From Heterostelium album PN500 (Eukaryota; Evosea; Eumycetozoa; Acytosteliales; Acytosteliaceae), in the NCBI RefSeq assembly GCF_000004825.1, contig NW_008805089.1:1394136-1458135 (forward strand): a stretch of 64,000 bases of DNA, read 5' to 3'. The position numbers and the translations under genes were made by a program. Under the pieces are notes generated by a model. The model was given only the letters and a program-made list of their open reading frames with translations, made no database searches and was not told where the DNA came from. This document shows, piece by piece, positions 3,952 through 54,168 of the stretch (its first letter is position 1; each line of letters begins with the position of its first letter).

Positions 3952-6900
3952 ATGTCATATATTAAATTAGAGGTTATCAATGATACCTCTGATGAAAGAA
4001 TCGATATCAGTGATGGAGCTGCCAAAGAATCTAGTCTAAAGAAGGCTGTCTTTAGTGTACATGGTATGACTTGTTCATCATGTGTCGGTATCATTGAATC
4101 GTTTATGTCCAATGTAGATGGTATCATTTCGATTCAAGTTGCATTACTTCAAGAGACTGCCGATGTTAAATTTAACCCATCTATTATAAATGTAAGTGAA
4201 AACAAAAGTAAACATTAAATCACATCTTATTAACTATATTATTAAATTTATTATTATTTTTTTTTTAGGAAGAAGAGATTGCTGAACAAATAAATTCAGT
4301 TGGATTTGAAGCAAAGCATATAAAACAAGCGGAACATAATACTTTGATGTTACAGATTGGTGGTATGACATGTTCATCATGTGTCGGTATCATTGAGAGT
4401 ATCGTTGGTCAAATGGATGGTGTAACAGAGATTAAAGTAAATCTTGCATTAGAGAATGCTAGAATCATGTATGATCCTGATTTAACTGGTGCAAGAAATA
4501 TTATTCAACAAATTGAAGATGTAAGTTAATAATAATAATTAATAGATTTTAAAACATAATAATAACATTTTTTATTAAAGGTTGGATTTACAGCTAATTT
4601 ACCATCAACAAATATAGAAGATACAAAGAATCTACAAAAAGAAGAGATTGCAAAGATACAAAGAGTTCTATTTATTAGTGTTTGTTTCACCGTACCTGTA
4701 TTTTTAATTGGAATGATATTACATAAAGTTACATGTAAGTTTTATTATTAATCTAATTAATCATTAAAATCTAACTTTTTTTTAATATTATTTTTTTAGT
4801 TTGTCAATTTTTATTTACAAGACAAATTGTACATGGTGTTAGTATTGCTGATTTTTTAATGTTTGTGTTTACAACACCTGTACAGTTTTGGGTTGGAAAG
4901 AGATTTTATATTAATGGATACAAGTCATTGAAACATGGTGGTGCTAATATGGATGTTTTGGTTGCACTTGGTACTAGTTGTGCGTATTTCTACAGTTTGA
5001 TGGTTATGATTATGGATATGATGAATCCAGAGTTACCAGAGACCAATATGGAGATGAAGACCTTTTTCGATACTTCTGCTTCGTTGATTACCTTTATTTT
5101 GTTGGGCAAGTACTTGGAGATCATTGCCAAAGGAAAGACATCGGATGCCATCAAAAAGTTGATGTCACTTCAAGCGACCAAAGCTATTCTCTTGGGAACC
5201 GACGGTAATGGTAATATTCTAGAGGAGCGAGAGATTGATATCGAGTTGGTACAACGTGGTGATATTCTCAAGGTGTTACCAGGTAGTAAGATTCCAACCG
5301 ATGGTATTGTAGTTTCCGGTGTTTCCAGTGTTGACGAATCGATTATCACTGGTGAATCGATGCCTGCAACCAAGCAAGCCAATGACAAGGTGATTGGAGG
5401 TACTGTCAATCAAAAGGGTGTTCTTCATGTGCGTGCCACTCGTGTCGGTGGTGATACTTCGCTCTCGCAGATCATTCGTTTGGTTGAGCGTGCTCAGACC
5501 GAGCGTGCACCCATTCAATCGTTGGCCGATAAGATTAGTGGTGTGTTTGTACCGGCAGTTGTTAGTTTGGGATTGCTGACATTTTTCGTTTGGATTGGTA
5601 TTGGTGCTTCCGGTGCAATCGATAAGATCATAGAGAATGCCAATTCCACTGTATTCCAATTTGCTCTGAGAAATGCCATCTCTGTCATTGTAATTGCTTG
5701 TCCATGTGCACTTGGATTGGCTACACCCACAGCAGTCATGGTTGGAACTGGTATTGGTGCTCAATGCGGAATTCTAATCAAAGGTGGATCACATTTGGAA
5801 ACTGCACACAAGATATCTGCTGTCATTTTCGATAAAACCGGTACTCTCACCACTGGTAAACCGATTGTATCGGAATCACATATCATTGGAAACAAGTATG
5901 ATAAAAAGACATTCTTTGAGTTGGTGGCATCGGCAGAGGCAGCCTCTGAACATCCATTGGCTGGAGCTATCGTCAACTATGCCTTTACAGTTTGTGATGT
6001 CACTGCTACCACTGTACCAGAGAATTTCGAGAGTATCACAGGTTCAGGTATTAGAGCAATCGTCAACAAAGTACCACTGATGATTGGTAACATGAAATGG
6101 ATCAACGAGTGTGGTATCAACTTTGCCAAGACCATCTCTGACACCAACCGTATCAATGATATCGAAGCAAAGATCAAACGATTGGAATCCGAAGGAAATA
6201 CAGTTGTTTTTGTTGTGTTGAATGAAGAGATCTGTGGATTGATTGCCATTAGCGATCAACTGAAACCAGAGGCACGTCCAACTATTACCGCTCTCAAAAA
6301 GATGGGTATCTTCCCTTGGATGGTTACTGGTGATAATCCACGTACAGCCAATGCCATTGCAGCACAATGTGGTATCACACAGGTTTTCGCAGAGGTGTTG
6401 CCATCGAATAAATCGAAAAAAGTACAGGAATTAAAACAACAGGGACATGTCGTTGCTATGGTAGGTGATGGTATCAATGATTCACCGGCACTCGCCGAAG
6501 CAGATGTTGGTATTGCTATTGGTGCAGGTACAGATATCGCTATTGAAGCTGCTGATATCGTTCTCGTTAAATCGGATCTACGTGATGTCATCACCGCAAT
6601 CAGTCTTTCAAAAACAACTTTTAATAGAATTCGTTTCAACTATCTTTGGGCTACCATGTATAATATTCTTGGTATACCGTTGGCTGCAGGTGTTCTTATT
6701 CCAGCAGGTTTCAGTATTCCACCGATGGTTGCTGGTTTGGCAATGGCTTTTTCAAGTATTAGTGTAGTTTTATCAAGTTTACATCTTAAAATGTATAAGA
6801 AACCTGTTATTAAAATACATAGTGATAATTTCCAAGCAAATGGTAAGTTATATATAATTTATAATTAATTTAGATAATTAACTTGATAATTAACTTTTTA

Positions 6901-7012
6901 TTTATTTATTTATTCAGAATCATCATTTAAAAAACATATATCATTTGAAATACCACTTAAAGGTGTACAAGTCGAACAACAATCTTTATTATCTAGAGAA
7001 CCCGATCCCTAG
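3952..7012 (+). CDS. Copper-transporting P1B-type ATPase, two HMA domains
   Basis: Integral membrane pump that uses ATP to export Cu(I) or load it into the secretory pathway (ATP7/CCC2 family). Exons 3952-4191, 4269-4520, 4581-4734, 4800-6842 and 6918-7012 join in frame to 927 residues. Two heavy-metal-associated domains each carry GMTCSSC (Cys41/44 and Cys115/118). They are followed by the membrane helices, the actuator motif TGES (about 399-402), the metal-path motif CPC (about 516-518), the phosphorylation motif DKTGTLT (Asp about 560), the SEHPLA nucleotide motif and GDGIND in the hinge. All catalytic residues are present. Two HMA domains, instead of six as in human ATP7A/B, resembles fungal CCC2. 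The ATG at 3952 gives the longest sensible N-terminus; no signal peptide is expected. Confidence 0.97.
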
Positions 7013-7325
7013 ATATAAATTTATTTAATAAATATAATATTATTTTTTTGAAATCAACATTCATCATAGTCAATATGGTGTATAATATAATTTAAAGTCT
7101 TAAAACAACTCTAACTGGTAAGATGACCAACGATCTTCCGGAAGAGTACTTTTAAAATTAAAAATTGTTTCTTTATTTAATTTCTAAATTAAGAGTATTT
7201 TGCTTATTAAAAAATTAGAAAAAATATAGAATGAAAGAGAGTTGCAAGAATCTGTTGGTTTTTAAGTTGGCAGGAAATGAACTTGTTGGTCAAATGATAG
7301 ATCATTAAAATAAATCACATTATAG
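7013..7325. other. Intergenic, ATPase to ankyrin gene
   Basis: A short AT-rich spacer. The only distinct feature is a 10-bp palindrome CTTCCGGAAG near 7134-7143 within a slightly less AT-rich 40-bp patch. No gene is seen. Confidence 0.5.
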
Positions 7326-8999
7326 ATGAAATCAGAGTTATTTAAACTTGTATTTAATAATATTATTATTAGATCAAATATATTCAATCAGTTACAAAAT
7401 GAAGCATATGGCCCTGGATATGAAAGATACAAATGGATACAATTAGTTAATTTACCGTTTCTATTGATACAATATGACTATTTCGATCTTTTTGTAAAGC
7501 ATTGGATCACCGTTGGTTGCAGTAACTATCACTACAAACAAATGAAATTGAAAGACAACATGGGGATATTTAAAGTAGCTATCAAATTCAACCGATTAAA
7601 CTTTATCAAGTGTTTCGTGGAACTCAATCTATTGGACCTTTCAAAGTATTCAACAGAAGTAATAGAAGCCGCAAGGAGAGAAAGAAAAAAAGAGATTGCA
7701 GTATTTCTAGTTTCGACAAGCAAATCAGATACTATTTATGATTATTCGCGAGATCTGATTGATGCTTGTAGGTCAAACGATATTGAAACTGTCAAACTAT
7801 TATCACCAAAGGTCAACAAAGAATTCTATGAAGCTAATTCACCGTTGTTTGAAGCTGCCTTTAGCGACAATTTGGAGATTGTAGATTGGTTATTGAACAA
7901 CAGATTCGATGAAGCCAACTTAATCGGTAGAACTAGATTGGTTGGCATGGTTGTAAACCAAAATCTAATGCATATACCTGATTGGCTGTTGTCTAAAGGC
8001 CATATTGAAGATATAGTCTATCACAATAGAAATCTATATTTGCACTTCCAACCGGGAACATTTCAATGGTTGAAGACAACCAAACTAAAGATAAACTTTT
8101 CATCAGAAGATATTGATAATGGTGCATGTAGTTTGTCACTCGATGACCTAAAGTGGATGTGTGATCACTGTAATGAACAGTTTAGTGGTATGGCAATGTA
8201 TAATGCGATCACAAACTCCAATTTTGAGGTTGCGAAATGGTTACATGAAAATCATAATGCAGTTGGTTCAGAGGAGGTAGATTATATAACTGTAAATGAT
8301 GAAAAGGAAACGCTAGAAATGATAAAATGGTTTCATGAAAATAGAACAGATACACTCGGTCTCCATGTTATGGATAGGGCTGCTTCTTCGTCACTAGATA
8401 TTGTCAAATTCCTTCATTTCAACAGAACTGAAGGATGTACTGATAATGCAATGCTTAACGCTCTAAAGGCAGGTCACATAGAAATATTCGAATTTCTCAA
8501 AGAGAATAGAACAGAGGGTGTACCGAATGATCTCATTGAACAACTTTGTGCTGATGGTAATTTGGCGATGATTCAATATCTTCATAAAACTGGAAAACCA
8601 AATGAATATCGTAATTGGTCACAAGCAATCGATAAAGCTGCCGAAAAATCACATTTACATTTGATAAAGTGGATTCATCAGAATACTGCTCATCGTTGCT
8701 CAAATGAAGCTTTTAAATGGGCATTGTTAAATGGAGATTTTGAAATGGTTCAATATCTCATCAATAACAAACTTTGTTCATATGATTTAGAGTCGATGGT
8801 GATTTCAAGGATAGGTTCTAAATATGGCGACATTCCAACATTGGATTGGTTATTGAAACAAAACATATTTGATCATGCCAAACTTGTTGAATGTGCAAAT
8901 CAAAATTATGTAGATTTTATAGGTGCATTCTTCAAAGATTATCATATTGATATAATAGATTATTTTAATATGGACAAATTATTAAAGATCAACGATTAA
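7326..8999 (+). CDS. Ankyrin-repeat protein, dictyostelid expanded family
   Basis: Single-exon protein of 557 residues. It starts MKSELFKLVFNNII, the N-terminal signature shared with the gene at 31081 and with a large dictyostelid family. From about residue 130 it is built of divergent ankyrin-type helix pairs, for example FEAAFSDNLEIVDWLL, AMYNAITNSNFEVAKWLHEN, MDRAASSSLDIVKFLHFNR and MLNALKAGHIEIFEFLKEN. The repeats keep the W-L-H-x-N ending. No enzymatic domain, membrane segment or signal peptide is visible. Its partners are unknown; these proteins are presumed cytosolic protein-binding scaffolds. The ATG at 7326 is preceded by A-rich sequence as usual. Confidence 0.9.
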   Translation: MKSELFKLVFNNIIIRSNIFNQLQNEAYGPGYERYKWIQLVNLPFLLIQYDYFDLFVKHWITVGCSNYHYKQMKLKDNMGIFKVAIKFNRLNFIKCFVELNLLDLSKYSTEVIEAARRERKKEIAVFLVSTSKSDTIYDYSRDLIDACRSNDIETVKLLSPKVNKEFYEANSPLFEAAFSDNLEIVDWLLNNRFDEANLIGRTRLVGMVVNQNLMHIPDWLLSKGHIEDIVYHNRNLYLHFQPGTFQWLKTTKLKINFSSEDIDNGACSLSLDDLKWMCDHCNEQFSGMAMYNAITNSNFEVAKWLHENHNAVGSEEVDYITVNDEKETLEMIKWFHENRTDTLGLHVMDRAASSSLDIVKFLHFNRTEGCTDNAMLNALKAGHIEIFEFLKENRTEGVPNDLIEQLCADGNLAMIQYLHKTGKPNEYRNWSQAIDKAAEKSHLHLIKWIHQNTAHRCSNEAFKWALLNGDFEMVQYLINNKLCSYDLESMVISRIGSKYGDIPTLDWLLKQNIFDHAKLVECANQNYVDFIGAFFKDYHIDIIDYFNMDKLLKIND

Positions 9000-30690: not shown

Positions 30691-31080
30691 TTTTTATCTA
30701 TCTATACAATTGTATTCAGGGAAAACAAAAAAAATAAACAACTACTAAAAAAACTGATTTCAAAAAAAAACTTTTTTAAAAAGATATTTAAAAAAAAAAA
30801 AAAAAATCAAAAAAATCAAAATTAATAAAATTGCAAAAAACCTTCACTTTTGACGTCAGCTTGGATTAGTTTTTTACAAAAAAACAACACACTGGTAATT
30901 TGTGGTTATCAAGATCATGATACTGTGAAAAAAAAAAAGATATTTTTAAAAAAAGGTGGTAATAAAAAAATAAAAAATAAAAAATAAAAATATTTTTAAA
31001 AAATCATTTCTGAGCAAGAAGCAAAAATTTAAAAAAGTTTATATATTCTATAAAAAGTTTTAACAATTATTTATTCATTT
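30691..31080. other. Divergent promoter region, syntaxin / ankyrin gene
   Basis: 390 bp, A/T homopolymers. The only standout word is the palindrome TGACGTCA at 30851-30858. No ORF is seen. Confidence 0.6.
30851..30858. promoter_or_regulatory. CRE-like palindrome TGACGTCA
   Basis: A perfect bZIP (CREB/ATF) consensus in the AT-rich divergent spacer between the syntaxin gene and the ankyrin gene. An 8-bp GC-containing palindrome is unexpected in this composition, but no binding evidence exists. Confidence 0.4.
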
Positions 31081-33000
31081 ATGGAAATAACATTATTTAG
31101 ATTAATATTTAATAATATATTTTTAAAAAAGTTTATATTTGATAAAGTTTATGTTGTTTGTAAGTTGGGGTGTGAACAACATTTCAGTTGGAGTGAATTG
31201 ATAAAGATACCAAAAGTTTTGACAGGTCATAGTTATTTTCATCAATTAAAACATTATATATCGACTAGTGGTACTAGAAACATTAGAATCAATGAATATG
31301 AAAAGAAACTAAACTACCATTGTTCAACAGAGATCTTTAGAAATGCAATCAAGTGTGGTACCGTTGAAATGTTGCAATATCTGATCGATCATCTCAATGT
31401 CGATATTGAGAATCACATTGATATTCGATCTCGTTACAATCATCGAAAGGCTTCCGAAGATATGTTTTATGAATCGTACAGTACGTTGAATAGTATTCTG
31501 TTTGGAGCATCACAATATGGTAGATTAGATATGATCCGTCATCTTTTAGAGAGATATCCAATATATGGATGGAATTTTCATAGAGCATTAGTTAAAGCAC
31601 CACTTTCCAAAGATATCGAGGTGTTGATGTTCTTTGTTGAGAAATCTATTGGTATAGCTAAAGACCTATCACATACAAACAATGTATTTAACATGGCATC
31701 GATAGTTGGAAGTATTGAAATGATTCAATATCTATGTGTCAATCGATCATGTGACTTGTCAACCTGTAATGTGTTTTTATATGCTATCAAGTCTGGACAT
31801 TTAGAGTTTATAGAATTTCTATTTTCAAACACCGAGTATTATCAGCAATTCATTGGAAAAGATAAAGATTATTTAATCATGTCGGCAGCAATGAACAATC
31901 ATTCTGAAATAGTAAAGTTATTAATAAAGAATGGTTTTCAAAGTAATAGTAATCTATGCAATGAGTTTTGTCGACATGGAAATTTACCAATGTTAAAATG
32001 GATAAAAGAGAATTCAAGTGATGCTTTTACAGATAAATCAATTAATTATGCTGCTACCAATGGTCATTTGGAGGTGGTGGTATGGATTTGTCAGAATACA
32101 ACTTTTGAATGTTCTTTGACTACTTGGTCAAGAGCTGCCGAGAAAGGACATCTTCAAGTACTCGAATGGATTGCCAATAACACAACTATACCAAGATTTT
32201 CATTCGATGCTTTTGAAAAGGCTGTCGGTAATGGTCATCTCTCTGTTATCGAATGGTTACACAAAAACAACAATCAAACAATACCATACCAAAGTGAAGT
32301 AATGGATATCTCTGCAAAAAGTGGTGATTTAAATCTTTTAAAATGGATGTATGATAATATTAAACTTCCATTTACAAAGAAAGCAATTAAATATTTAGTA
32401 AATGGTAATCATATGGAAGCTTTGAAATGGCTTTATGAAAATGGTGGAATCGATTGTTCTGGTGGTTCAAAATTAATGAAATCTGCTGCCAAGAATGGAC
32501 ACATAGCTATATTACAATGGTTGAATGATAATATACAGGAAGAGTGTAGTTATGATTCAATGGTTGCACCAGTTTTACAAGGTGACCTCAACACAATGAT
32601 ATGGTTGCATCAAAATAGAACTGAAATAAAGTGTTCCAATAGAGAAATGGTTGTGGCAGCAAGAGAAGGACACCTAGACATTCTACAATGGTTAAACGAG
32701 AATCGTAGTGATGCATTTTGTAGTATCGAGGCAATGGAGATGGCATTCCTATCTGCACATTCTAACGTTGCCAAATGGTTACACACTAACCGAACAGATT
32801 GTAATCTTGGACTCATCGATATGGAAAATCTAAAAGACTCTCTATTCAGATATGATAGACCACATATTATTAAATGGGTAATATCAGAGATACCCAATGA
32901 TAAACTAAATTATCTTTATCAATTATTATTAGAGGATCAATATGTAAATAATACATCAAAGAAAATATTAAAAGATTATTTATCAGATATTGTTTTTTAA
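31081..33000 (+). CDS. Ankyrin-repeat protein, dictyostelid expanded family
   Basis: Single-exon protein of 639 residues, paralogue of the gene at 7326: it begins MEITLFRLIFNNIFLKKFIFDKV, the same N-terminal cap. About 14 degenerate ankyrin units follow, for example LFGASQYGRLDMIRHLLERY, FNMASIVGSIEMIQYLC, INYAATNGHLEVVVWICQN, WSRAAEKGHLQVLEWIANN and MKSAAKNGHIAILQWLND. The units keep the G-H-L-x-x-L/I-x-W-L core. There is no transmembrane or catalytic segment. The function is unknown; a protein-interaction role is inferred from the fold. Confidence 0.92.
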   Translation: MEITLFRLIFNNIFLKKFIFDKVYVVCKLGCEQHFSWSELIKIPKVLTGHSYFHQLKHYISTSGTRNIRINEYEKKLNYHCSTEIFRNAIKCGTVEMLQYLIDHLNVDIENHIDIRSRYNHRKASEDMFYESYSTLNSILFGASQYGRLDMIRHLLERYPIYGWNFHRALVKAPLSKDIEVLMFFVEKSIGIAKDLSHTNNVFNMASIVGSIEMIQYLCVNRSCDLSTCNVFLYAIKSGHLEFIEFLFSNTEYYQQFIGKDKDYLIMSAAMNNHSEIVKLLIKNGFQSNSNLCNEFCRHGNLPMLKWIKENSSDAFTDKSINYAATNGHLEVVVWICQNTTFECSLTTWSRAAEKGHLQVLEWIANNTTIPRFSFDAFEKAVGNGHLSVIEWLHKNNNQTIPYQSEVMDISAKSGDLNLLKWMYDNIKLPFTKKAIKYLVNGNHMEALKWLYENGGIDCSGGSKLMKSAAKNGHIAILQWLNDNIQEECSYDSMVAPVLQGDLNTMIWLHQNRTEIKCSNREMVVAAREGHLDILQWLNENRSDAFCSIEAMEMAFLSAHSNVAKWLHTNRTDCNLGLIDMENLKDSLFRYDRPHIIKWVISEIPNDKLNYLYQLLLEDQYVNNTSKKILKDYLSDIVF

Positions 33001-34750: not shown

Positions 34751-35305
34751 ATGGCAAATAAAGAATCTATTAATCCAACCACCATCACAAACGAACTGTC
34801 AAAGGGCGATATCGACAACAGCAATATTAAGAGTGAAAATCAACCAGCTACCACCCTATTCCCAGAGATCACTCCTACTAATTCCCGTCAGGATCCATTA
34901 CTAACCGATCTCTTCCAATCTAGTCTAGTACCACCCAAACTACCGATCTCCTCTCCCATCATACCAAGCCAAGCGGACGGAAAACAATTAAATAATAGTA
35001 ATTTAGAGAATCATCAGTTTTTAAATATAGTTTCAACATTTAATAATAGTATTATTCGTAGTTATAAGATAATAAATTTTCAACCAAATTTTATCGATTT
35101 TCCTAAAGAAAACTATTTCCAACAGCTTCAATCAATTTTTAAATCATCAACTTTAAAAACATTTTTTCAAATACAAGAAATAGCTCAGTTTATAATAGAA
35201 TCTTTATTAATATTAGGTTGCCAGTTGAATATTTTATACTCTCAAGTTAGAAGTACAGCACATAAAGTTGGTCTTGAAATAATCTTTTCTTTCCAAATTG
35301 ATTAA
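34751..35305 (+). pseudogene. Chimeric ORF: unknown Pro/Ser-rich head fused to a serine-recombinase-gene fragment
   Basis: An open frame of 184 codons. Residues 1-80 (MANKESINPTTITNELSK, then QDPLLTDLFQ and PPKLPISSPII) have higher GC and codon use unlike the rest; they resemble a mobile-element gag-type sequence but no family is recognised. From about 34990 the reading matches exon 1 of the recombinase gene at 40180: NHQFLNIVSTFNNSI against NHPFLKIVSTFNNSI, and IIESLLILGCQLN is shared. It ends abruptly (FSFQID) before the rest of that exon. It is probably a junction made by insertion or rearrangement rather than a working gene. Confidence 0.7.
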
Positions 35306-35339
35306 ACTCTTTAAAAAGAGGATTTGATCATTAGTAGAT

Positions 35340-36215
35340 TTATGATATTTTATAGATGAATGACCTTATATACCTGGAGAAGATCGACCAAATAGAATCT
35401 TCTGACTTTACATGATTCTTTGATGAATTCATTACAAAAAACTGGTAAAAAATCACTCCATTGTTCTCCAGTGTCCAATTCGTTTGTTGATTGTATCTAA
35501 ATGTATAAACTGAATGTTGGATTGATAATTGATGAAAAGAATGGTAAAACGTTCTGATCTTATCCAAAACTAGATTAATTGACAAATGAACATAACTCCC
35601 ATCTACCATTGTTCCATTCTTTCACTTTGGTTGTAAAAACCTGATTGCTTGAAAAATCCAACATACATGAAATGAATTTACCAAATATATCTATAGGTGT
35701 CATGGTAATGATGAATCGAACCTAATATTACTAAAGATTCTATTATAACTGAGGTATTTCTTGTTTTTGAAAAACTGTTTTTAATGTTGATGATTTAAAA
35801 ATTGATTGAAGCTGTTGGAAATAGTTTTCTTTAGGAAAATCGATAAAATTTGGTTGAAAATTTATTATCTTATAACTACGAATAATACTATTATTAAATG
35901 TTGAAACTATATTTAAAAACTGATGATTCTCTAAATTACTATTATCTAATATAATAACTTTTTTAGGTTGATTATTTGATGATTCATATACAGTATTAAA
36001 TACTGCTTCACCCGAAGGAAATAAATCAATAATAACATTTGATAAAAACAAAGATTGTTGTGATATAATCTCTGATTCTACTTAATTAAAGTGATTTATT
36101 ATTATTACTATCTATTATAAATGTTTTTTTTATTTTAGAAAATGAAAAAAGAATAGGTGATATGTTAATTTGTGGATAAGGCAAAAACAATTCAATTTTT
36201 AAATATTCTATTTAT
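35340..36215 (-). pseudogene. Broken, internally deleted copy of the serine-recombinase gene
   Basis: Minus strand, in order from 36215: LKIELFLPYPQINISP, a nonsense break, DLFPSGEAVFNTVYESS, NHQFLNIVSTFNNSI (all exon-1-like), a jump, then TPIDIFGKFISCMLDFSS and INLVLDKIRTFYHSFHQLS (exon-2-like, after the catalytic part). The segment carrying the catalytic Ser and LDRLSR is missing. About 170 bp (35776-35946) is nearly identical and inverted relative to 34990-35162, so the two fragments form an inverted duplication. It has frameshifts and stops, so it is a dead copy. Confidence 0.85.
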
Positions 36216-38329: not shown

Positions 38330-39665
38330 GGCAAAAGAGATCTTATCAAGATACAACATTAGTAGATGATGAACAAATTAACAATATAGATTTCAACAAT
38401 CAATCATTAATAACTTGATATATAATCTCTATTATCAGTGTTTAGAGAGTAGTAGTTTACAGTGTAGTAGTTTACAGTTCTTTGTTGATCATCGATTCAA
38501 ATTTTTAGATTCTATCGATATTAGAGGTTGCATTGAGTTCATTGTAGATGTCTTTTTTGTTCCTTCATTTGTATAAGTATAAAATGTCATCTTTTCAAAG
38601 TCGACATTACATTCACCAACAATAACTTATTTATTAATTAATGATCAAAAGAGTAATTATTATAATGTCGTACCGATTTCAATCAATAGTTTATATTATG
38701 ATTTTAATGACTTCATCAATAAATATGACAATGACAATTTCAAAGTTCATATACTAGTATTTGGTTCAATTGTATAAGATATTTTATTAGAGAGTCATCT
38801 CTTTTATTTATCAATTGATTCCGAGATTGTTACATTGGTTTCGGATCACTGCAACTCTGTCAACTGCTCTTTAACAAAGTTATCAATTTGAACATCTTTT
38901 TTTTCAAATTCGTATCCCAAATATTCCATTTTGGTTATTATTTGTGTGGTCCTCTCAATCTCCAGTGTGAGGGTTTCATTGTTAGCTCATGTCGACATTT
39001 TATTATCATTTAATCCATCAAATATTGCGAGAGTTCAGATCGTATCATTCAATTCTACTCAAGAGTAAGATTAATTACACACAAAATAATGGTCATGGTA
39101 TTGTTCGATGTCATATCAATAAAGATAATCTAGTTTTTAGTTGTTTGGACTTTCTTGTTTCATTAATACTGCTTCATTCAAACTCATCAAGTTATCAATT
39201 GTAAGGCTTGCGATCTTTCCAACCATATCTTCTTGTTTTTTTTAATTATACTTGTTCAAGGTGTAGAGCTTACCCTACAGTTCGTGTTTATATCTTATTG
39301 CTATCTTTCCAACCCTTACCTTAATTCATTTTGTATACAGACTTTCCAACTAGTTGTTAGTGTTTGCCAACTTTTTTTGTTCAACCATATGTTTTTTTTC
39401 AATTTTTCGGGCTATATATTTTTTATACACATATTTTTATTCACAAGATGTCATCAAGACACTTTGTTTTTGCAAGTTTGTTGTTTTTCTCAGATGACTT
39501 TGTTGTGGCACCCAACAAAAAAAAATGTTGTTACTTCTCGTGCTTTAGTGGTCATCCTTGCGCAGGGACTACTGCTAATCTTCCTCTTGCACAACATTGG
39601 AAATTCTTTAAGAGCGCTTCTGTATTGTTCCATTTTTAATGAATCCCACCCGAAGGTGGTCCAAT
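38330..39665. repeat. Segmental duplication, copy A (contains an interrupted U6 gene)
   Basis: From AGATCTTATCAAGATACAAC near 38338 to the U6 5' end at 39662 this matches 46440-48395 with scattered substitutions and indels. Both copies contain a decayed plus-strand coding-like part (LDSIDIRGCIEFIVD, then DFNDFINKYDNDNFKV and TLVSDHCNSVNCS) full of stops, followed by the region downstream of a minus-strand U6 gene. This copy lacks most of the tandem expansion seen in copy B. Confidence 0.85.
39517..39662 (-). pseudogene. U6 snRNA pseudogene with insertion in the ACAGAGA box
   Basis: The minus strand starts with a stem-loop GGACCACCTTCGGGTGG (UUCG loop), then AATGGAACAATACAG, then about 37 nt of foreign sequence where intact U6 has two bases. 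It resumes with AAGATTAGCAG, CCCTGCGCAAGGATGACC and a T9 terminator. The insertion splits ACAGAGA, the catalytic and 5'-splice-site-pairing box. It does not have GT...AG ends, so it is probably not a removable intron. Confidence 0.85.
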
Positions 39666-40179
39666 CTTTGTATAGAATAGATCATCAAGTATTTAAATAA
39701 TCTACTTAATAAAATTTAGGGAATATTTTTATTTTTAACACTATTTTTTATATTAATATCATTTTAGTAATATTAAATCTTTGATTCTGAGAGATTGAAA
39801 ATTATTTATAAAAAAAATTAACAGGAATCAAATAGAATAGAAAAAAATTAAAAAAAAATTAAAAAGATTTTGTTAATTAACAAAATTGTTAATAGAATCA
39901 AATCTTTTTCATTGTTAAATATAAAAGTATTATTTTAAAGGAGGAATAATGACATCCTTCAATTTGATTACTTGTTTAAAAAAAAAAACATTTAAATTTT
40001 AATAAAACATTTATTTTTTAATAAACAAAAAAAAACTACAATCAAAATAGTATTATCTTTCTTTTACATCTTTTAATTATTTATCTTTAGAAATAAGAAT
40101 TAATTTAATAACTTTATATCATAGTTTATAGAAAATAGAATTTATTTTTAAATATTTATATAAATATTTATTTATAATA
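39666..40179. other. Upstream region of the serine-recombinase gene
   Basis: About 500 bp, extremely AT-rich. No terminal inverted repeat matching the 3' side (43957-44140) is apparent to the eye, and no ORF is present. Confidence 0.5.
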
Positions 40180-41662
40180 ATGAATAATAATAAACATTTA
40201 TTATACTTGATAGGAAATCAATATTATTATGAACAGAATTATCATATAATTAATAAAAATCCTTTAGAAATAATAAATGATACATATAAACATAATATTG
40301 ATATTTTTACTTTGTTTAATCGTATTTTCAAAGAATTATCAACTATATTTTTAGATTTAAAGATTGAATTGTTTATACCATATCCAGAGATTCACATATC
40401 ACCCATTATATTATCATTTTCTAAAATAAAAGATAATTTATTAATTAATAATATAAATAATAAATCACTTTTATTTAAAGCAACAGAAATAATAAAAAAG
40501 CTATCATTATTTTTATCAAATGATATTGTTGATTTATTTCCTTCTGGAGAAGCTTTGTTTAATACTGTTTTTCATTCTCCTACAACTCAACCAATCAAGG
40601 TTATTATATTAGATAATAGTAATAAAGATAATCATCCTTTTCTAAAGATTGTTTCAACTTTTAATAATAGTATTATATCTAGTTATAATAATGATAATCA
40701 TCAACCAAATTTTCTACCATTTCCAATAGAAATGTATTTTGAACAAATTGGTTTAATTTTTAATTCACCCAATGATTTTAAAAAATCATCAATACCAAAC
40801 AATATTATTGAATCTTTATTAATATTAGGCTGTCAATTAAATATTATATATTCACATGTTAGAAGAACACCACATCAAGTTGGTATCGAAATTATTATCT
40901 ATTTATATATTATCTATATAATTAATCACCCAAATGATTATGAAATATCTAAATTTCAAAATCATTATTCTTTATTATTTGAATCCATCCCAGAATGGTG
41001 TTTTAATTTTGTAAATTTCTCTATCAATAAACAAATCAACACATATTCAATCAAATCAATGACAATGGATGGCCAAACTGCTATTCCACTTCGTCCTCCA
41101 ACAGATGCTAAATCAGCTTTTATTTTAGGTGTTTCATCAAATTCAAATTATAAAAAGAAACAATACCTACCAATTCCAATCATTCCAAATGATTTCAAAT
41201 TGAAATCTAAAGATAACTCTGTAGTTTGTGATATCTTGGGTCTTATGGATTGCCAAGATACAGCTATAGATCAGAATCATGGTTTTTATATAATCTTTAT
41301 AAGTTCATTAAATATGAAATCAAATATTATTTCAATTTTAGAATCAAAATTGATCCCATCATCATCCATCTCTAAATATTTAATTGTAAATAATTATTTT
41401 ATTTTTAAAACAAATTTTTTTTATTGAAATTTTTTATATTGTTTCCTTTTTTAAACAGGTGGATATATCTATATGGTTAAATTCAATTGGTAGAAAGAGA
41501 CCAACTAGAATATTATCTTTACCATTCGATAAGAAGAGATCAGGAGGTGTTCATTTTTATACACCAAAGAATATAGACTCTATCACCCAAATATTTATAC
41601 AACAATCAACTAAGATAAGTGAAAAAGAAAAGAATTCACTTCTTTTTATGAATAATATGATA

Positions 41663-41719
<57 letters not shown>

Positions 41720-43956
41720 TCAATTCAATATGTTAATAATTGTTGGATATTAATTAGAGAATCAACAAAAGAACAATTGGAACATGGTAAAAGTCTGTTG
41801 AATCAATCATGTCTTGGTATCAATACTATGTTGTATCTAATGAATCTCAATCTACCAGTTGGAACTGTTCAGTTACAATCTATTAATCCTAGATTGATTA
41901 TAGAGATTGCTTCATGCTATTGGAATGATGCTAAAGACAGAACTCAATTGTCTTTTATGTTGGATAAATTGGAAACACTAGACTTGGTGATTATTGGTTC
42001 ATTAGATCGACTTTCTCGTCGAGTTGATGATTTCAATCATATCATTGATATCTTTGTTGAAAAGAAAGTTAGATTCATCATTATTATTGCACCAACAGAT
42101 ATATTTGGTAAATTCATTTCCTGTTTATTGGATTTCTCAAGCAAACAAGTATTTACAACAATGGTTAAAGAATGGAGCAATGGTAAATGGGAATTAAGTT
42201 CAATGTCAATTAATATGGTTTTGGATCAGATGAGAACGTTTTACAATGCTTTTCATCAATTATCAATTCAACAATCTATCTATACTTTGAGATATCATCA
42301 ACAATCATATTGGACTGTCAATAGCATTGGATCTTTGTTTTATGAATTTTTTGAAAATCAATTCAAAATTAATTCAAATACTGTAAGAGGATCTTACTTT
42401 GTTCGTTCATCTCCTGGTAAATTTGGTCAGTCTTCTTTAAAATACAACAAGTCGACTGAAGATCAATTGTTATTTCTAAAATCAATGATTAATTTGGATA
42501 GAAAAGATAGTTTTCCTAAAACTAAAGCTCATTCCTATTTGAATGTGGACAAGAATAGACTGAATCAAGATATCATTGATGATATCGATGATTTTGTAGA
42601 CGATTTAGAAGAAGGTAAGTAATTAAAATTTTAAATATTGGTTTTTTAAATAAAACTACTTGTAAACTAATTAAATTTTAATATAATTTATTAGACTCTA
42701 ATGATTTTTTAATTGAAAAATCAATAGAAGAATTTAAACAATTAAAAAATTCCAATAATTTTTTAATTGTTTCTATATGTATGTAATAAATATTTTTAAT
42801 ATTAGTATTTTTATCTTTTGTTTAATTATTTTATTTTATTTTCATAGCTCTTGACCGATTATTACGTGATGAAAGTTTTTATGATAAGATGATTCAATGC
42901 TCAGAGGAGAATGGTTGCCTAATTATCATATTTTTTCCTACATTCAACATTATCAAGGAATTATATAAATCAAATAATAATTATTTGTTATCAACACTCA
43001 ACCAAATTCTACAACATTTAAATTTAGAAACATCTACAACTCTTTCTCCTCAACTTGAACATTTAAATGAATATATCAAACTTCAAATTGAGAAGGAACA
43101 ATTCTTTCAATTAACATTTAATAATGGTGTAACAGACTCCAAGTACCACTTTACTCAACAAATGGTTCTTCCAGTTTTGGTAAATCGCTCCAACAAGGAT
43201 TTATTAATACAAGCAGTTCTAAATTCAAGACACTTTCTGGAATACACGAGAAAGAATATGATTCCATATACAATCTATAGAAGTAGGTTTACGAATGTAG
43301 TTGGAAACAAAACAGAGGTTTCGATTGCTGAAATTGATTTAGATAAGGAAGACAAATACTCAGTTTCAAAGTTCATGGGAACTGTTATGGATTCATGCAA
43401 CCTTGGCCCTCAAGATAGAGATTTGCTAAGCCAACCTATTCAAGAAGCATCAACTTTCTTCCATGCCAAGAATTTTTCTTCACAAGCTCACTCCAACGTC
43501 AATAAGAAAGCTCATGATACTATTAGAAAGTATGTATAAATTATAATTATTAAATTGTTTTACTTAAAGTTGTTTTTTTTGTTGGATATTAATATTTTAT
43601 TTTTTAATTTTAGTGTTAAATCTGTTTTGGATTTTGAAAAATATTATGATCCTTCAAATAAATATAACAAAGATGTTTTTAATATCTTTTCCAAGACTAT
43701 TGTCGATGATCTAAATTCACCTTCAAAAAAGACAATCAAATCTTCCACCTCGTCAACCTCTTCTAAATCAGGTGCATCTTCAACTATAACAACCTCAACC
43801 ACTACCACTTCTCAATCCTCAGAGTACTTTTGTAAAGATTGTGGTAAACCTAGAGAATATAAAACTAAAAAAGGAAAATATTGTGATGATTGTTTTAAAG
43901 CCAACAAAAACTTACAAAACAAATGTAAAAAACAAAAATTACACAATAATAAATAA
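40180..43956 (+). CDS. Serine-recombinase (resolvase/invertase)-domain protein with zinc ribbon
   Basis: Five exons (40180-41385, 41459-42614, 42695-42778, 42848-43529, 43614-43956) join in frame to 1156 residues. Residues 1-400 have no recognised domain. An Asn19 run (about 471-489) precedes a serine-recombinase catalytic domain: the nucleophile motif ILIREST (Arg502, Ser504), then DRTQLSFMLDKL and LVIIGSLDRLSRRVDDF (Asp585, Arg586, Ser588, Arg589) and VRFIIII. These residues equal the family's Arg-x-x-Ser and DRLxR active site, so strand cleavage through a 5'-phosphoserine link is plausible. A second, Ser-less resolvase-like segment follows (IVSISLDRLLRDESF, about 812-826). A Ser/Thr-rich linker leads to a CxxC...CxxC zinc ribbon (about 1116-1136). 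Eukaryotic codon use and introns rule out bacterial contamination. It is either a transposase or a domesticated one; residues and frame are sure, the function is inferred. Confidence 0.85.
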
Positions 43957-44677: not shown

Positions 44678-45270
44678 GTGTTCAAAAAAAAATAAAAAAT
44701 AAAAATAAAAATAAAAATAAAACACAACCCTTTATAAAAAGAATTTGATTTAAAGTTAAAATATTTAAATCAAAAATGATGTTTGGCTCCAAAAAAAAAG
44801 TTTGTTACTAACACATTATCAATTAAAATTAAGAGATACAAAAAAAATATGAAGTATCAAAATATTTAATATAAAATAATTAAAAAAAAAAGAGATAAAT
44901 TAATATAAAATCATTGTATTGAGGTTATTTTAGCAAAACTATTCTAAATGAGGTTTTCCAATCAGGCACAAAAGTTTTAGTAAGTTGATGGTTTTTAATT
45001 CTATCAAATTCGTTTTGGTTAAAAGTATGATAGGAGAGGCCTCTTTAACAGTTGGTTAACCTTTGTTACATTTTCAAAATATTCTCTTTATTTAGATTAG
45101 TTCACTAAATAGAGAGTAGTTTGTGTTGTATTTAATCATATTTTATTTCTTTGCGCATTTATTTTTGGTAGATATCAATTTGTTAAAGCTTTTCATTGAC
45201 TACAACTGTTGTTAAATGATCAACTTCAAACCATAATTTTTAGGTATTTATTTCATATAGATAATTTGTA

Positions 45271-45319
<49 letters not shown>

Positions 45320-45496
45320 GTGATTGCTGCAATCACATTTCTGATATTAAGAGATGACTCAGGACTTATTGTTTTAATTAATAGTTGACTTCAATGTTGA
45401 TTTCCTGATCGGTGGTGGCAATTTCCAACAGATCTATTGTTGGTGGTTGTGTTTTATTTTTATTTTTATTTTTATTTTTTATTTTTTTTTGAACAC
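44678..45496. mobile_element. Non-autonomous element with perfect 52-bp terminal inverted repeats
   Basis: Left arm 44678-44729 (GTGTTC, A-runs broken by single T, then CACAACC) is the exact reverse complement of 45445-45496 (GGTTGTG ... GAACAC). Even the lengths of the five or so A/T runs match, so this is not chance. The interior is 715 bp without an ORF and contains an ATT microsatellite (about 45272-45318) and a small hairpin TGTGATTG/CAATCACA. I see no clear target-site duplication. A hAT remnant starts immediately to the right, so this may be an internal or end part of a hAT relative. Confidence 0.75.
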
Positions 45497-46429: not shown

Positions 46430-48340
46430 TTGTCGCTAAAGAGATCTTATCAAGATACAACATTAGTAGATGATGAACAAATTAGCAATATACCCTTAAA
46501 CAATCAATCATTAATAAATCTCTATTCTCAGTGTAAATGACACTTTAAGATCACAAGGTTTACAGTTCTTTGTTGATATTTTATCATTCAAATTTTTAGA
46601 TTCTATCGATATTAGAGGTTGCATTGAGTTCATTGTAGATGTCTTTTTTGTTCCTTCATTTGTATAAGTATAAAATGTCATCTTTTCAAAGTCGACATTA
46701 CATTCACCAACAATAACTTATTTATTAATTAATGATCAAAAGAGTAATTATTATAATGTCGCCATTTCAATCAATAGTTTATATTATGATTTTAATGACT
46801 TCATCAATAAATATGACAATGACAATTCAAAGTTCATATACTAGTATTTGGTTCAATTGTATAAGATATTTTATTAGAGAGTCATCTCTTTTATTTATCA
46901 ATTGATTCCGAGATTGTTACATTGGTTTCGGATCACTGCAACTCTGTCAACTGCTCTTTTAACAAAGTTATCAATTTGAACATCTTTTTTTTCAAATTCG
47001 TATCCCAAATATTCCATTTTGGTTATTATTTGTGTGGTCCTCTCAATCTCCAGTGTGAGGGTTTCATTGCTAGCTCATCGACGTTTTCATATCATTTAAT
47101 CAATTATTCTCAAGAGTAATTCTGTATAGGTATCTATCTCAATTGAGTATACTTGGTCATTTATTTAGTGTCTTCTTTAATGATCATGGTATTGTTTGAT
47201 GTCATATCAACATTCATTCGGTTATCATGATCCAGTTTTTAATTGTTTGGACTTTCTTGTTTCATTAATACTGCTTCATACACTTACATGTGTAAGGCTT
47301 GCGATCTTTCCAACCATACCCATTCTCTTTTTTCAGGTTATCAGCTTTATTCATACCTGTATGGCTTGTGATCTTTCCAACCATCTTCTTGTTTTTTTTT
47401 TTAATTATCCTTGTACTACCTGACTATAGGTGTAGAGCTTACCCTACAGTTCGTGTTTATATCTTCTTGCGATCTTTCCAACCATACCATTCATTTTGTA
47501 TACAGACATTCATTGTTAGCTCATGTCGACGTTTTCATATCATTCAATTCTTCTCAAGAGTAATTCTGTATAGGTATCTATCTCAATACTTTGGTGTGTT
47601 CTTTGGTCATGGTATTGTTCGATGTCATATCAACATGATCATCTAGTTTTTAGTTTGGACTTTCTTGTTTCATTGTTAGGCTTGCGATCTTTCCAGTACC
47701 CTACCATACCCATTCTCATTTTTTAGGTTATAAGCATTCATACCTGTATGTTTTCTCTACTCTTTGGTCATTTGGTGTGCTCTTTGGTCATGGTACTGTT
47801 CGATGTCATTAATTTTCATGATCATTCAGTTTTTAGTTGTTTTGACTTTCTTTTTTCATTCATTGTAAGGCTTGCGATCTTTCCATACCATTCATTTTGT
47901 ATACAGACTTTCATTGTTAGCTCATGTCGACGTTTTCATATCATTGTATCTAGGGATCTATCTCATTATTTGGTGTGTTCTTTGGTCATGGTATTGTTCG
48001 ATGTCATATCAATTTTCATGATCATCTAGTTTTTAGTATGGACTTTCTTGTTTCATTCATTGTTCGTGTTTATGTCTTCTTGCGATCTTTCCAACCATTC
48101 ATTTTGTATACAGACTTTCAGTTGTTAGTGTTTGTCAACTTTTTTTGTTCGACCATATGTTTTTTTTCAATTTTTCAGGCTCTATTTTTTTTATACACAT
48201 ATTTTTATTCACAGGATGTCATCAAGACACTTTGTTTTAGCAAGTTTGTTGTTTTTCTCAGATGACTTTGTTGTGGCACCCAACAAAAAAAAATGTTGTT
48301 ACTTCTCGTGCTTTAGTGGTCATCCTTGCGCAGGGACTAC

Positions 48341-48371
<31 letters not shown>

Positions 48372-48400
48372 ATGGATCCCACCCGAGGGTGGTCCAATCT
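46430..48400. repeat. Segmental duplication, copy B, with internal tandem expansion
   Basis: Matches copy A (38330-39665). Between 47060 and 48110 a unit of about 200-400 bp is repeated three to four times. Recognisable words are CTTGCGATCTTTCCAACCAT, TTCATTTTGTATACAGAC, GTCGACGTTTTCATATCATT, TTTGGTCATGGTATTGTTCG and TTTTTAGTTTGGACTTTCTTG. The many ORFs here are low-quality by-products of the repeats. It ends with an intact-looking U6 gene on the minus strand. Confidence 0.85.
48285..48395 (-). ncRNA. U6 spliceosomal snRNA
   Basis: Catalytic RNA of the spliceosome, pol III-transcribed. The minus strand begins GGACCACCCTCGGGTGG (5' stem-loop), then ATTAAAATTGGAACGATACAG; ACAGAGA box intact; AAGATTAGC with the catalytic AGC triad; the internal stem-loop around CCCTGCGCAAGGATGACC; a 3' part AAAGCACGAGAAGTAACAAC; and a T9 run as terminator. 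Length of about 111 nt is normal. I see no clear upstream element or TATA box at -25, so expression from this copy is uncertain. Two damaged relatives lie at 39.5 and 53.3 kb. Confidence 0.92.
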
Positions 48401-51193: not shown

Positions 51194-52249
51194 ATGACCT
51201 ATCATGTTTATGTGAGTAGTAGTGATTGGGATCTGCTTAAACAAATATTTAATTTAGAATATTCATTATTAGAGAACAACAGTTCTTTTCAATTTGAAAT
51301 AAATAAACAAGTGCCTATACGATCGAATGATAGTCCATACAAATGTTATTCAAATCAGTTTAATATCGATCCATGTTGGATTTCACGTTGCCTAATGATA
51401 CCAAAATCAAAATCATTCTTTAAATGTGTTGTAAGTAATAGTTTTGTATAGCAACATGTAAAGATAATCTAATATAATTAAATCAAATAGAAAAGATCAG
51501 GTGACCAAATTGACAGTTTCAAATTAACTAAACTTCGTGATCGACTCATCGAAAGCCTCGCCACAAGTCAACGCCAACAAAAAACAAACATGCACCAACA
51601 ATTGTCTAAAATATTAGAACCAACTACATCACAAGAAAACCCACTTCTCCAAAACAATACCAACACACTTCATAACATCACTACATGTATACCCAATAAG
51701 AATATAAGCCAAGAAGTTATTCTAAGCTCAACTCAACTATCAACTTTTCAAAACAATTATCAAATTAATATTATCAACAATTCAATAACTATAGTAAATA
51801 ATAATGTAAATCTGGTCAACGAGCTTCAAGCTAAACTTAATCATATGGAGGCCGAGCTTGAACATACCAATGCCGAGCTTGAACATACCAAAGCCGAGCT
51901 TGATCATGCCAAGGCCAAGCTTAAGGATACAGAGACCGAGCTTGATCATACCAAGGCCAAGCTTAAGGATACAGAGACCAAGCTTTATCATACCAAGGCC
52001 GAGCTTGATCATACCAAGGATGTGCTTAAGGATACAGAGACCAAGCTTGATCATACCAAGGCTGAGCTTGATCATACCAAGACCGAGCTTGATCATACCA
52101 AGGCCAAGCTTGATCATACCAAGGCCAAGCTTGATCATACCAAGGCCAAGCTTGATCATACCAAGGCTGTGCTTAAGGATACAGAGACGATTACAATTAA
52201 CTATTATGAATATCGTACAACATTATTTAAAAAAGTTAGAGCAATCTGA
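51194..52249 (+). CDS. Coiled-coil repeat protein, tandem family copy 3
   Basis: Exons 51194-51430 and 51491-52249 (GTAAGT...TAG intron) give 331 residues. Residues 1-79 form the family's conserved domain: SSDWDLLKQIFNLEYSLLEN, YKCYSNQFNIDPCWISR, IPKSKSFFKCV. A linker with KRSGDQIDSFKLTKLRDRL precedes 17 tandem heptads of LDHTKAK type (DNA repeat 51836-52192), a predicted long coiled coil. The last 20 residues are in a different frame from the conserved ending: one frame over reads MNIVQHYLKKLEQSDKVL, homologous to copy 2. So a one-base indel at about 52190 has cut off the original tail, or the tail frame is used by an unseen splice. There is no known family match; function unknown. Confidence 0.65.
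51836..52192 (+). repeat. 21-bp tandem repeat (17 units) coding heptads
   Basis: The unit is approximately CTTGATCATACCAAGGCCAAG. It has variants with CTTAAGGATACAGAGACC in a semi-regular order, suggesting a higher-order unit of 42-63 bp. All three forward frames and one reverse frame are open throughout. Confidence 0.9.
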
Positions 52250-53110: not shown

Positions 53111-53327
53111 ACAGTCCTTGCATCTATTTGTATTCAAAAAATTATATTGATATTAGAAGAAAAATTTAAATTATTTAAAAAAGTTAACTTCTTCATTTCT
53201 CTGATGCTGCCAGTTCTAAACCTTAGACTTCCTATCTGAACACAAAAAATTTTTGGGTGTTAACTCATTTTGAAATATTTTTTGTCAAAAAATTGCCACA
53301 ATGAACAAAAATTTTTTTAGTGGGGTG

Positions 53328-53373
53328 AGCAAGGATGACCACTAAAGCACGAGAAGTAACAACATTTTTTTTT
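53328..53373 (+). pseudogene. 5'-truncated U6 snRNA fragment
   Basis: The plus strand reads AGCAAGGATGACCACTAAAG, GCACGAGAAGTAACAAC and T9, the 3' half of U6. It is followed for about 100 bp (to 53470) by the same flank found downstream of the other two U6 copies. The break lies exactly at GCGCAAGG of the internal stem-loop. Confidence 0.85.
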
Positions 53374-53479
53374 GTTGGGTGCCACAACAAAGTCATCTGA
53401 GAAAAACAACAAACTTGCTAAAACAAAGTGTCTTGATGACATCCTGTGAATAAAAATATGTGTATAAAAAAAATAGTTC

Positions 53480-54168
53480 ATAGAATCGAAAAAAAAATAT
53501 AATGAAAAATGACATTGTGAAAGAAATTAAAATTATATCATTTAGTTCTCTTATTATAGTGGTCTCAAACTTCATAGAATCGATTCTAAGAAGATTATTG
53601 ACTTCCTACTAATTGTTAAAAGTCAATTTAAAAGATAGTATGAAAAGCAAAAAACAATAGACTTAGCGAACTACTTGGCTGTTCACCATTATTTTTTAAT
53701 ACAAATAATTTTGTAAGTAATAACTAATAGTTATAACTTTATTTGTAAATAGTAAATTCAGAATATAATATCAAAATAAAATTCATTCAAAATTTGATAA
53801 AATAAATTGAAGAAAAATAAAACTGTTTTTTTGTTTTATTATCTCAACATTAACAGATCTATTTCATTTGATTTAACTGTTTCTATTTTAAAGATAACTA
53901 TTTTCTTTTTAAAAATTACTTTTAACTATTTAAATAAAATCAAGAAAAAAAATAGTAATTTTTATTATTTCAAATAATTCTATTTAAACAGAATTTAATT
54001 TTGAGTTTTCAAAAATTATATTAAATAGAATTATTACAATATTTACCTCTAAAGAGAAACAGTTAAATATATATTGATCAATATTATTTACAACTATTTA
54101 AAGTTTTATAACAATTTTACTCTTAAAAATGATTTTTTTATTATTAATAACAATATATTTATTTAAAG
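53480..54168. other. AT-rich intergenic DNA
   Basis: About 690 bp. No ORF with coding character is seen; the sequence approaches the next recombinase fragment. Confidence 0.5.

Follow-up and report, generated by a model that had tools for sequence, protein, structure and literature searches.

In a 64,000-nucleotide (nt) stretch of the Heterostelium album PN500 genome (contig NW_008805089.1, positions 1,394,136 to 1,458,135, forward strand; hereafter the window), a gene at 40180–43956 on the plus strand encodes a protein of 1,156 amino acids (aa) in the preferred five-exon model (Table 1). Judged from its sequence, this is a genuine gene of a eukaryotic chromosome for a serine recombinase with a complete active site, an enzyme that would be catalytically active. 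Related copies and decayed relics are dispersed over unlinked sites of the same genome, most of them beside genes with strongly biased codon use. We examine the gene, its catalytic core, a putative second core and the distribution of its relatives, and propose that they represent a transposon family.

Structure of the recombinase gene

The gene lies in an assembly of 32.9 Mb and 39 contigs. We tested splicing by combining candidate sites; an uninterrupted frame from start to stop results in two models, one of four exons (1,128 aa) and the preferred one of five. The latter was chosen because the residues of exon 3 continue the sequence pattern at the same place in the paralogues, so that the extra exon is supported by matching paralogue residues. 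All four introns are GT–AG, 69–84 nt long and 88–90% AT. The multi-exon gene that an earlier reading of this DNA (the original prediction) had placed here is thus present, with its exons, open frames and GT–AG introns, and the numbering of Ser504, Arg586 and Arg589 is right in the five-exon protein.

A complete serine recombinase active site

The catalytic core, domain 1, lies in exon 2. Exons 1, 2, 4 and 5 were scanned against Pfam singly, and not as the spliced protein; exon 2 scores 28.2 bits against the Resolvase family PF00239 (cut-off 23.3), the profile search by which the original prediction had proposed to be checked. Exon 2 of the paralogue at locus L022 also passes, at 27.0 bits, and a PF00239 search of the gene's own assembly returned three matches at E ≤ 0.001, all three in copies of the recombinase family. 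Exon 2 further matches PHROGs families annotated ‘DNA invertase’ (E = 2.2e-8) and ‘integrase’ (E = 3e-7), with a weak match only in NCBIfam (E = 0.011). A profile built from the window protein and three of its paralogues was searched against the Protein Data Bank (PDB) and recovered the gamma-delta, Tn3, Sin and TP901-1 recombinases: solved serine recombinases fill the top 14 of 16 rows (E = 1.8e-4 to 0.05), and the last two are the unrelated RNase H2 subunit B (E = 0.28). Aligned by hhalign to six phage serine recombinases, domain 1 gives a probability of 97.0 (E = 9.4e-11) over a span that runs from the R-x-S strand through the strand following the DRLSR helix. The proposed resolvase relationship is therefore backed by Pfam, PHROGs, the PDB profile search and profile–profile alignment to phage recombinases, and these matches indicate that the exon 2 motif is more than chance.

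All six active-site positions (R8, S10, R45, D67, R68 and R71 in gamma-delta resolvase numbering) are occupied in the window copy. R502 and the nucleophile S504 of the R-E-S motif are what we take to be R8 and S10, and R563, D585, R586 and R589 supply the remaining positions. The three paralogues are 24–25% identical to the window protein, and an alignment of the four keeps 32 invariant columns of 360, among them the active-site R, S, R, R and R. The complete active site that had been predicted is thus present in the window copy and conserved in its paralogues.

A second recombinase-like core

Domain 1 seems to be followed by a second, divergent resolvase-like core (core 2), which goes beyond the earlier account and extends across exons 2, 3 and 4. 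An R-x-S motif stands at the end of exon 2 in all five copies read there (VRSS in the window copy, SRTS in L019, ARTS in L020, SRVS in L021 and SRMS in L022), and downstream a hydrophobic strand ends in D-R-x-x-R in seven of seven sequences compared. The two halves of core 2 are separated by long stretches, partly acidic. When each half is aligned to the phage recombinases by itself, the first is placed at the R-x-S segment and the second at the DRLSR segment, neither score being equalled in any of 300 column shuffles; against domain 1, the second half was equalled in none of 300 shuffles and the first in one. No arginine is seen in core 2 at the R45 distance, and for this reason core 2 is probably not catalytic alone.

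Terminal regions

Exon 1 aligns with L020, L021 and L022, at about 19% identity to L020. The predicted N-terminal region of some 400 residues exists, as a 402-aa exon, and its description as novel holds to the extent that it has no Pfam family above cut-off. A profile match of this region to Vts1p (E = 0.0047) was judged to be chance or low complexity, as were matches to histone H2B (E = 0.08) with a profile of exon 4, an exon that has no Pfam match. Two CxxC pairs are present in exon 5 where a C-terminal zinc ribbon had been predicted; the ribbon itself stays unproven because no zinc family passes its Pfam cut-off. PF11928 (24.9 bits, cut-off 25) and six other families all score below their cut-offs in exon 5, and most of these matches were judged to rest on a Ser/Thr-rich stretch.

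Table 1 Features of the recombinase gene and its surroundings (window coordinates)
Feature	Coordinates	Strand	Basis or remark
Exon 1: start codon and novel N-terminal region, 402 aa	40180–41385	+	Open frame
Exon 2: catalytic domain 1 and N-terminal part of core 2	41459–42614	+	PF00239 match; family alignment
Poly-Asn run (AAT repeat), precedes domain 1	41663–41719	+	
Resolvase catalytic domain 1, ~aa 495–638	41735–42164	+	hhalign to phage recombinases
R-E-S motif, R502 and nucleophile S504	41756–41764	+	Invariant in 4/4 family members including window
R563, aligns with gamma-delta resolvase R45	41939–41941	+	PDB profile alignment; invariant 4/4
D585, R586, R589 (D67, R68, R71)	42005–42019	+	PDB profile alignment; both Args invariant 4/4
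Putative core 2, ~aa 708–869: R718, S720; D818, R819, R822	42374–43008	+	Halves align to phage recombinases
Exon 3, 28 aa	42695–42778	+	Frame and paralogue match
Exon 4: second half of core 2 and region of unassigned role	42848–43529	+	Open frame
Exon 5: C terminus, two CxxC pairs at 43825–43893	43614–43956	+	Open frame
Relic: broken, rearranged partial gene copy (exon 1 and 2 pieces, both strands), 4 kb upstream	34987–36204		Genome searches
U6 small nuclear RNA (snRNA) match, weak	39520–39660	-	46.1 bits
U6 snRNA match, strong	48288–48393	-	82.5 bits
Host duplication	38331–39667 and 46435–48400		82–84% identity
178-bp sequence, three copies	53326–53500, 39387–39564, 48155–48332		93–95% identity
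819-bp segment with 52-bp inverted repeats	44678–45496		Repeats perfectly complementary
Imperfect tandem repeats	51833–52188		Offsets 105, 147 and 210 bases; heptad-like frame
tRNA-Phe	32389–32486	+	ARAGORN; inside long open frame 31054–32997

Around the gene, both U6 matches lie inside the host duplication, which brackets the recombinase gene, and two copies of the 178-bp sequence partly overlap them. The tRNA-Phe may be a false call. The segment with 52-bp inverted repeats begins 0.7 kb after the gene; it was rejected as an element end, its arms matching only each other genome-wide.

A dispersed family beside genes with biased codon use

Genome searches, the counts of which are lower bounds, used exon 2, exon 4 and the N- and C-terminal regions as queries and found at least 13 family pieces in ten neighbourhoods on seven contigs (C3, C4, C9, C12, C24, C27 and C37), bearing out the suggestion of a recombinase family. 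Its members are the window gene and the copies at loci L019, L020, L021, L022 (decayed) and L080 (internally deleted); relics lie beside the window gene, beside L020 and at L078, L079 (two), L038 and L066. One family search gave 32 rows, eight taken as family and 24 dropped, nearly all of the latter being matches to nothing but the query's Asn-rich stretch (one dropped row was C4:1054575, E = 0.022, query 66–225). A second gave 18, ten of which were kept; two weak rows at known places (E = 0.045 and 0.09) and six others were not counted. The two L079 relics (1457–1759 and 5066–5368), each with part of core 2, are 93% identical and lie 3.6 kb apart.

Two comparisons within the family differ in their pattern of substitution. 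Between the window gene and its local relic, differing sites amount to 63 of 305 at first, 47 of 305 at second and 109 of 304 at third codon positions (20.7, 15.4 and 35.9%; P = 7e-9), and this third-position excess is a sign that the window copy has been under protein-level constraint since it parted from the relic. L019 and L080 lie on different contigs (C12 and C9) among different neighbour genes and are 94–96% identical without gaps (697 of 729 sites in the 5′ region, 376 of 398 in the C-terminal exon), with about 5% substitutions and a blastn identity with gaps of 80–88%. Their differences number 8, 7 and 7 by codon position, an even spread as would be expected of copies drifting without constraint after insertion.

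Outside the window, the 3′ end of a cofilin gene points at L019, EF-2 precedes L020 and its adjacent relic, RPL15 precedes L021, and L022 lies by profilin. The relics at L078, L038 and L066 follow genes for S-adenosylhomocysteine hydrolase, S-adenosylmethionine synthetase and formin, respectively, and L080 follows an AAA ATPase gene, read as CDC48. Eight of these nine neighbours were identified by Pfam; the ninth, a Pro/Gly-rich protein gene followed by L079, was identified by reading, with no family search. In all nine neighbourhoods the closest family sequence lies about 0.1–0.8 kb from the stop codon. The optimal-codon fraction, here a proxy for expression, is 0.58–0.74 in nine of nine neighbours against one of 24 window open reading frames (ORFs) (Fisher 2.6e-7), with the threshold chosen after the values had been seen and against a small, crude background of stop-to-stop ORFs of at least 150 aa (26 listed, two element ORFs removed) that includes one relic ORF and some antisense frames. 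Other genes of the fetched loci, which were outside this background, are mostly low, but an ORF beyond the C4 relic reaches 0.62. The pattern suggests that most copies lie near the ends of genes whose codon use indicates heavy expression.

Element ends

The sequence common to L019 and L080 ends in different flanks. At L019, an 11-bp direct repeat (2714–2724 and 6902–6912) abuts both ends of a 4.18-kb element; among random 30-bp pairs from the same loci, a match of at least 11 bp arose in 17 of 20,000 trials. No terminal inverted repeat is evident at L019, where one arm of the sole 9-bp inverted match falls beyond the element, and the flanks of five copies, compared for shared ends, have no common termini.

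Host sequence is also repeated around some copies, the 3′ end of a host gene being duplicated around the copy at two loci, cofilin and profilin. At L019, a 128-bp direct repeat of the cofilin 3′ untranslated region (2417–2539 and 7557–7684) lies outside the element ends, and for that reason the host repeats there were not adopted as integration sites. At L022, a 420-bp inverted repeat of the profilin 3′ end (2057–2476 and 7171–7588, 99% identity) flanks the decayed copy, and the longer profilin copy is out of frame near its end relative to the partial one. The S-adenosylhomocysteine hydrolase locus has a candidate 23-bp duplication (0 of 60 shuffles). A 17-bp match at CDC48, of a length likewise reached in none of 60 shuffles, was dropped as poly-A, and the other five of nine loci gave nothing above shuffles.

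Interpretation

We consider it likely that these sequences are a lineage-specific, low-copy transposon family, with the two-core serine recombinase as its transposase, an enzyme that would move its own gene. Domain 1 would attack DNA through Ser504, like resolvases and serine integrases, and core 2 may be a built-in partner subunit, so that a single chain would function as a dimer does. Binding to DNA or chromatin would be the part of the N- and C-terminal regions, which would also bring the complex to its insertion sites in the flanks of genes with strong expression. A bolder proposal, which we put forward as a speculation that may well fail, is that the family represents a class of eukaryotic transposon with a fused double recombinase, one core live and the other degenerate, that targets the 3′ flanks of genes under strong transcription and makes a longer target duplication than is known for serine recombinases.

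Several observations weigh against the transposon reading. The exon 2 frames of L019, L020 and L021 fall under the PF00239 cut-off (22.1, 14.4 and 20.2 bits), and L020 has E where the others carry D67. Core 2 was first spotted by eye, and its tests came later; with both halves in a single profile it aligns poorly, with probabilities of 6.6 and 1.8 against the phages and 35.5 and 0.4 against domain 1, and the L038 relic, which was outside the seven-sequence comparison, is without the core 2 DRxxR motif. Element ends are defined for the L019 subfamily only, and L080, the other copy with usable ends, has no such direct repeat, leaving the repeat in one of two copies. The L080 piece nearest to its neighbour gene is a 111-bp terminal fragment 0.76 kb off, and the main copy is 2.0 kb away. 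Neither of the two pieces in the window adjoins a codon-optimised gene: the start of the recombinase gene lies some 0.5 kb off the 5′ side of the weak U6-like match, in a host duplication that has the strong U6 match in its second copy, and the relic follows a LanC-like gene of low codon bias. Our confidence is slightly lowered by how far L080 lies from its neighbour and by the low Pfam scores of the paralogues.

The original prediction had offered a transposon or a domesticated enzyme. The family as a whole looks transposon-like, and the constraint on the window copy keeps the other option in view: this copy may be kept for a chromosomal function, the others being old relatives or debris. We regard such domestication as unlikely. 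The window copy is fully open over five exons, its divergence from the local relic is concentrated at third codon positions and its 3′ flank is mostly single-copy, all as a host gene would have it; but an active transposon lineage likewise evolves under constraint, the 5′ flank is not single-copy (it has matches elsewhere, many of them nearby), and the broken copies, the closely similar unlinked copies and the relic beside the window gene all speak for a mobile family.

The 11-bp repeat at L019 bears on a further alternative. The strand cuts made by serine recombinases are staggered by 2 bases, and insertion by these enzymes does not normally duplicate the target; because this stagger predicts no such repeat, the repeat fits their chemistry poorly, a real tension for a family moved by its own recombinase. 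Passages of PMC6188088 likewise describe IS607 elements as making no target duplications. The tension gives some room to a passenger or accessory role for the recombinase gene, in elements moved by another enzyme such as a DDE transposase acting in trans, which would account for a repeat longer than a serine recombinase would be expected to leave. We noticed no other transposase among the ORFs listed for L019–L022, not all of them scanned against families, and L019 is without an evident terminal inverted repeat; we think a passenger role improbable.

That the protein is no serine recombinase, with chance R-E-S and LDRLSR motifs in an unrelated sequence, is very improbable. With the single window sequence as query, the PDB search gave poor and heterogeneous matches (best E = 0.033; some of its 16 rows are unrelated chains), the best phage tblastn match among the best 20 of 110 records has E = 0.004, and 59 residues separate the catalytic serine from the R45 equivalent, compared with 35 in gamma-delta. 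Against this stand the Pfam score above cut-off, the PDB profile search, an active site kept in diverged paralogues and an alignment that runs through both motifs. Three alignments were used in pattern scans of viral contigs in IMG/VR, and the exon-2 protein as well as the exon-2 alignment in scans of GTDB genomes; none gave a confirmed relative within the reach of those patterns. Bacterial contamination or a misassembled prokaryotic gene, an explanation suggested by the mainly prokaryotic distribution of serine recombinases, is rejected on the four short AT-rich introns and the host neighbours: the relatives lie on seven contigs next to housekeeping genes of a eukaryote, and the pattern scans gave no confirmed relative.

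Comparison with known systems

Small resolvases and invertases are proteins of about 180–210 aa with one core and a C-terminal helix-turn-helix. The window protein is like gamma-delta, Tn3 and Sin in its R-x-S motif, Arg45 region and DRLxR helix, and unlike them in its length of 1,156 aa, its introns and its putative two cores; Pfam detected no helix-turn-helix. With the large serine integrases (TP901-1, A118 and those of staphylococcal phages) it shares a run of sequence, RESTKEQLEHGKSLLNQ in the window copy closely resembling the start of the phage StB12 integrase, RVSTLEQKEHGYSIEEQ, and possibly a C-terminal zinc element. It differs from them in its long region ahead of the first core, in having two cores and in lacking a zinc ribbon or a PF07508 Recombinase domain above cut-off, the latter giving no match in exons 1, 2, 4 and 5 or in the scanned paralogue exons.

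The TnpA of IS607-type elements, which occur in bacteria, giant viruses and some eukaryotes, is short. Both it and the present family are serine recombinases at eukaryotic transposon-like loci, with a catalytic domain that is not N-terminal. Exon 1 has no Pfam match above cut-off to an IS607-like N-terminal MerR-like domain, and no TnpB/Fanzor partner was noticed in the ORF lists of L019–L022 and the window, where no search was aimed at TnpB/Fanzor families; parts of PMC6188088 and PMC3627910 give IS607 TnpA an N-terminal DNA-binding domain and a frequent TnpB/Fanzor partner. The yeast proteins of PMC2715888 are, in passages of that paper, a small eukaryotic serine recombinase family under constraint, as is the family here; their architecture differs, with a conserved N-terminal part of about 50 residues and then one catalytic domain over nearly all the rest.

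Eukaryotic serine recombinases are IS607-type in sections of PMC3627910, PMC2715888, PMC4642659, PMC10711439, PMC6188088 and PMC5006619, and a literature search, with most subscription journals outside its coverage, gave no description recognised as this recombinase family among the matches listed. Parts of PMC5006619 describe the retrotransposons of this organism group as targeting tRNA genes or centromeres; if the insertion bias is real, the 3′ flanks of highly expressed protein-coding genes would be a new class of target for the group. Tandem cores would also give a natural single-chain dimer for the study of strand exchange by serine recombinases.

On sequence, the protein falls within the PF00239 superfamily and, by the domain features tested, outside the large integrases, the small resolvases and IS607; its architecture matched no known group. 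A family of long recombinases with introns and two cores, known so far from this genome alone, would represent a separate route of serine chemistry into eukaryotes.

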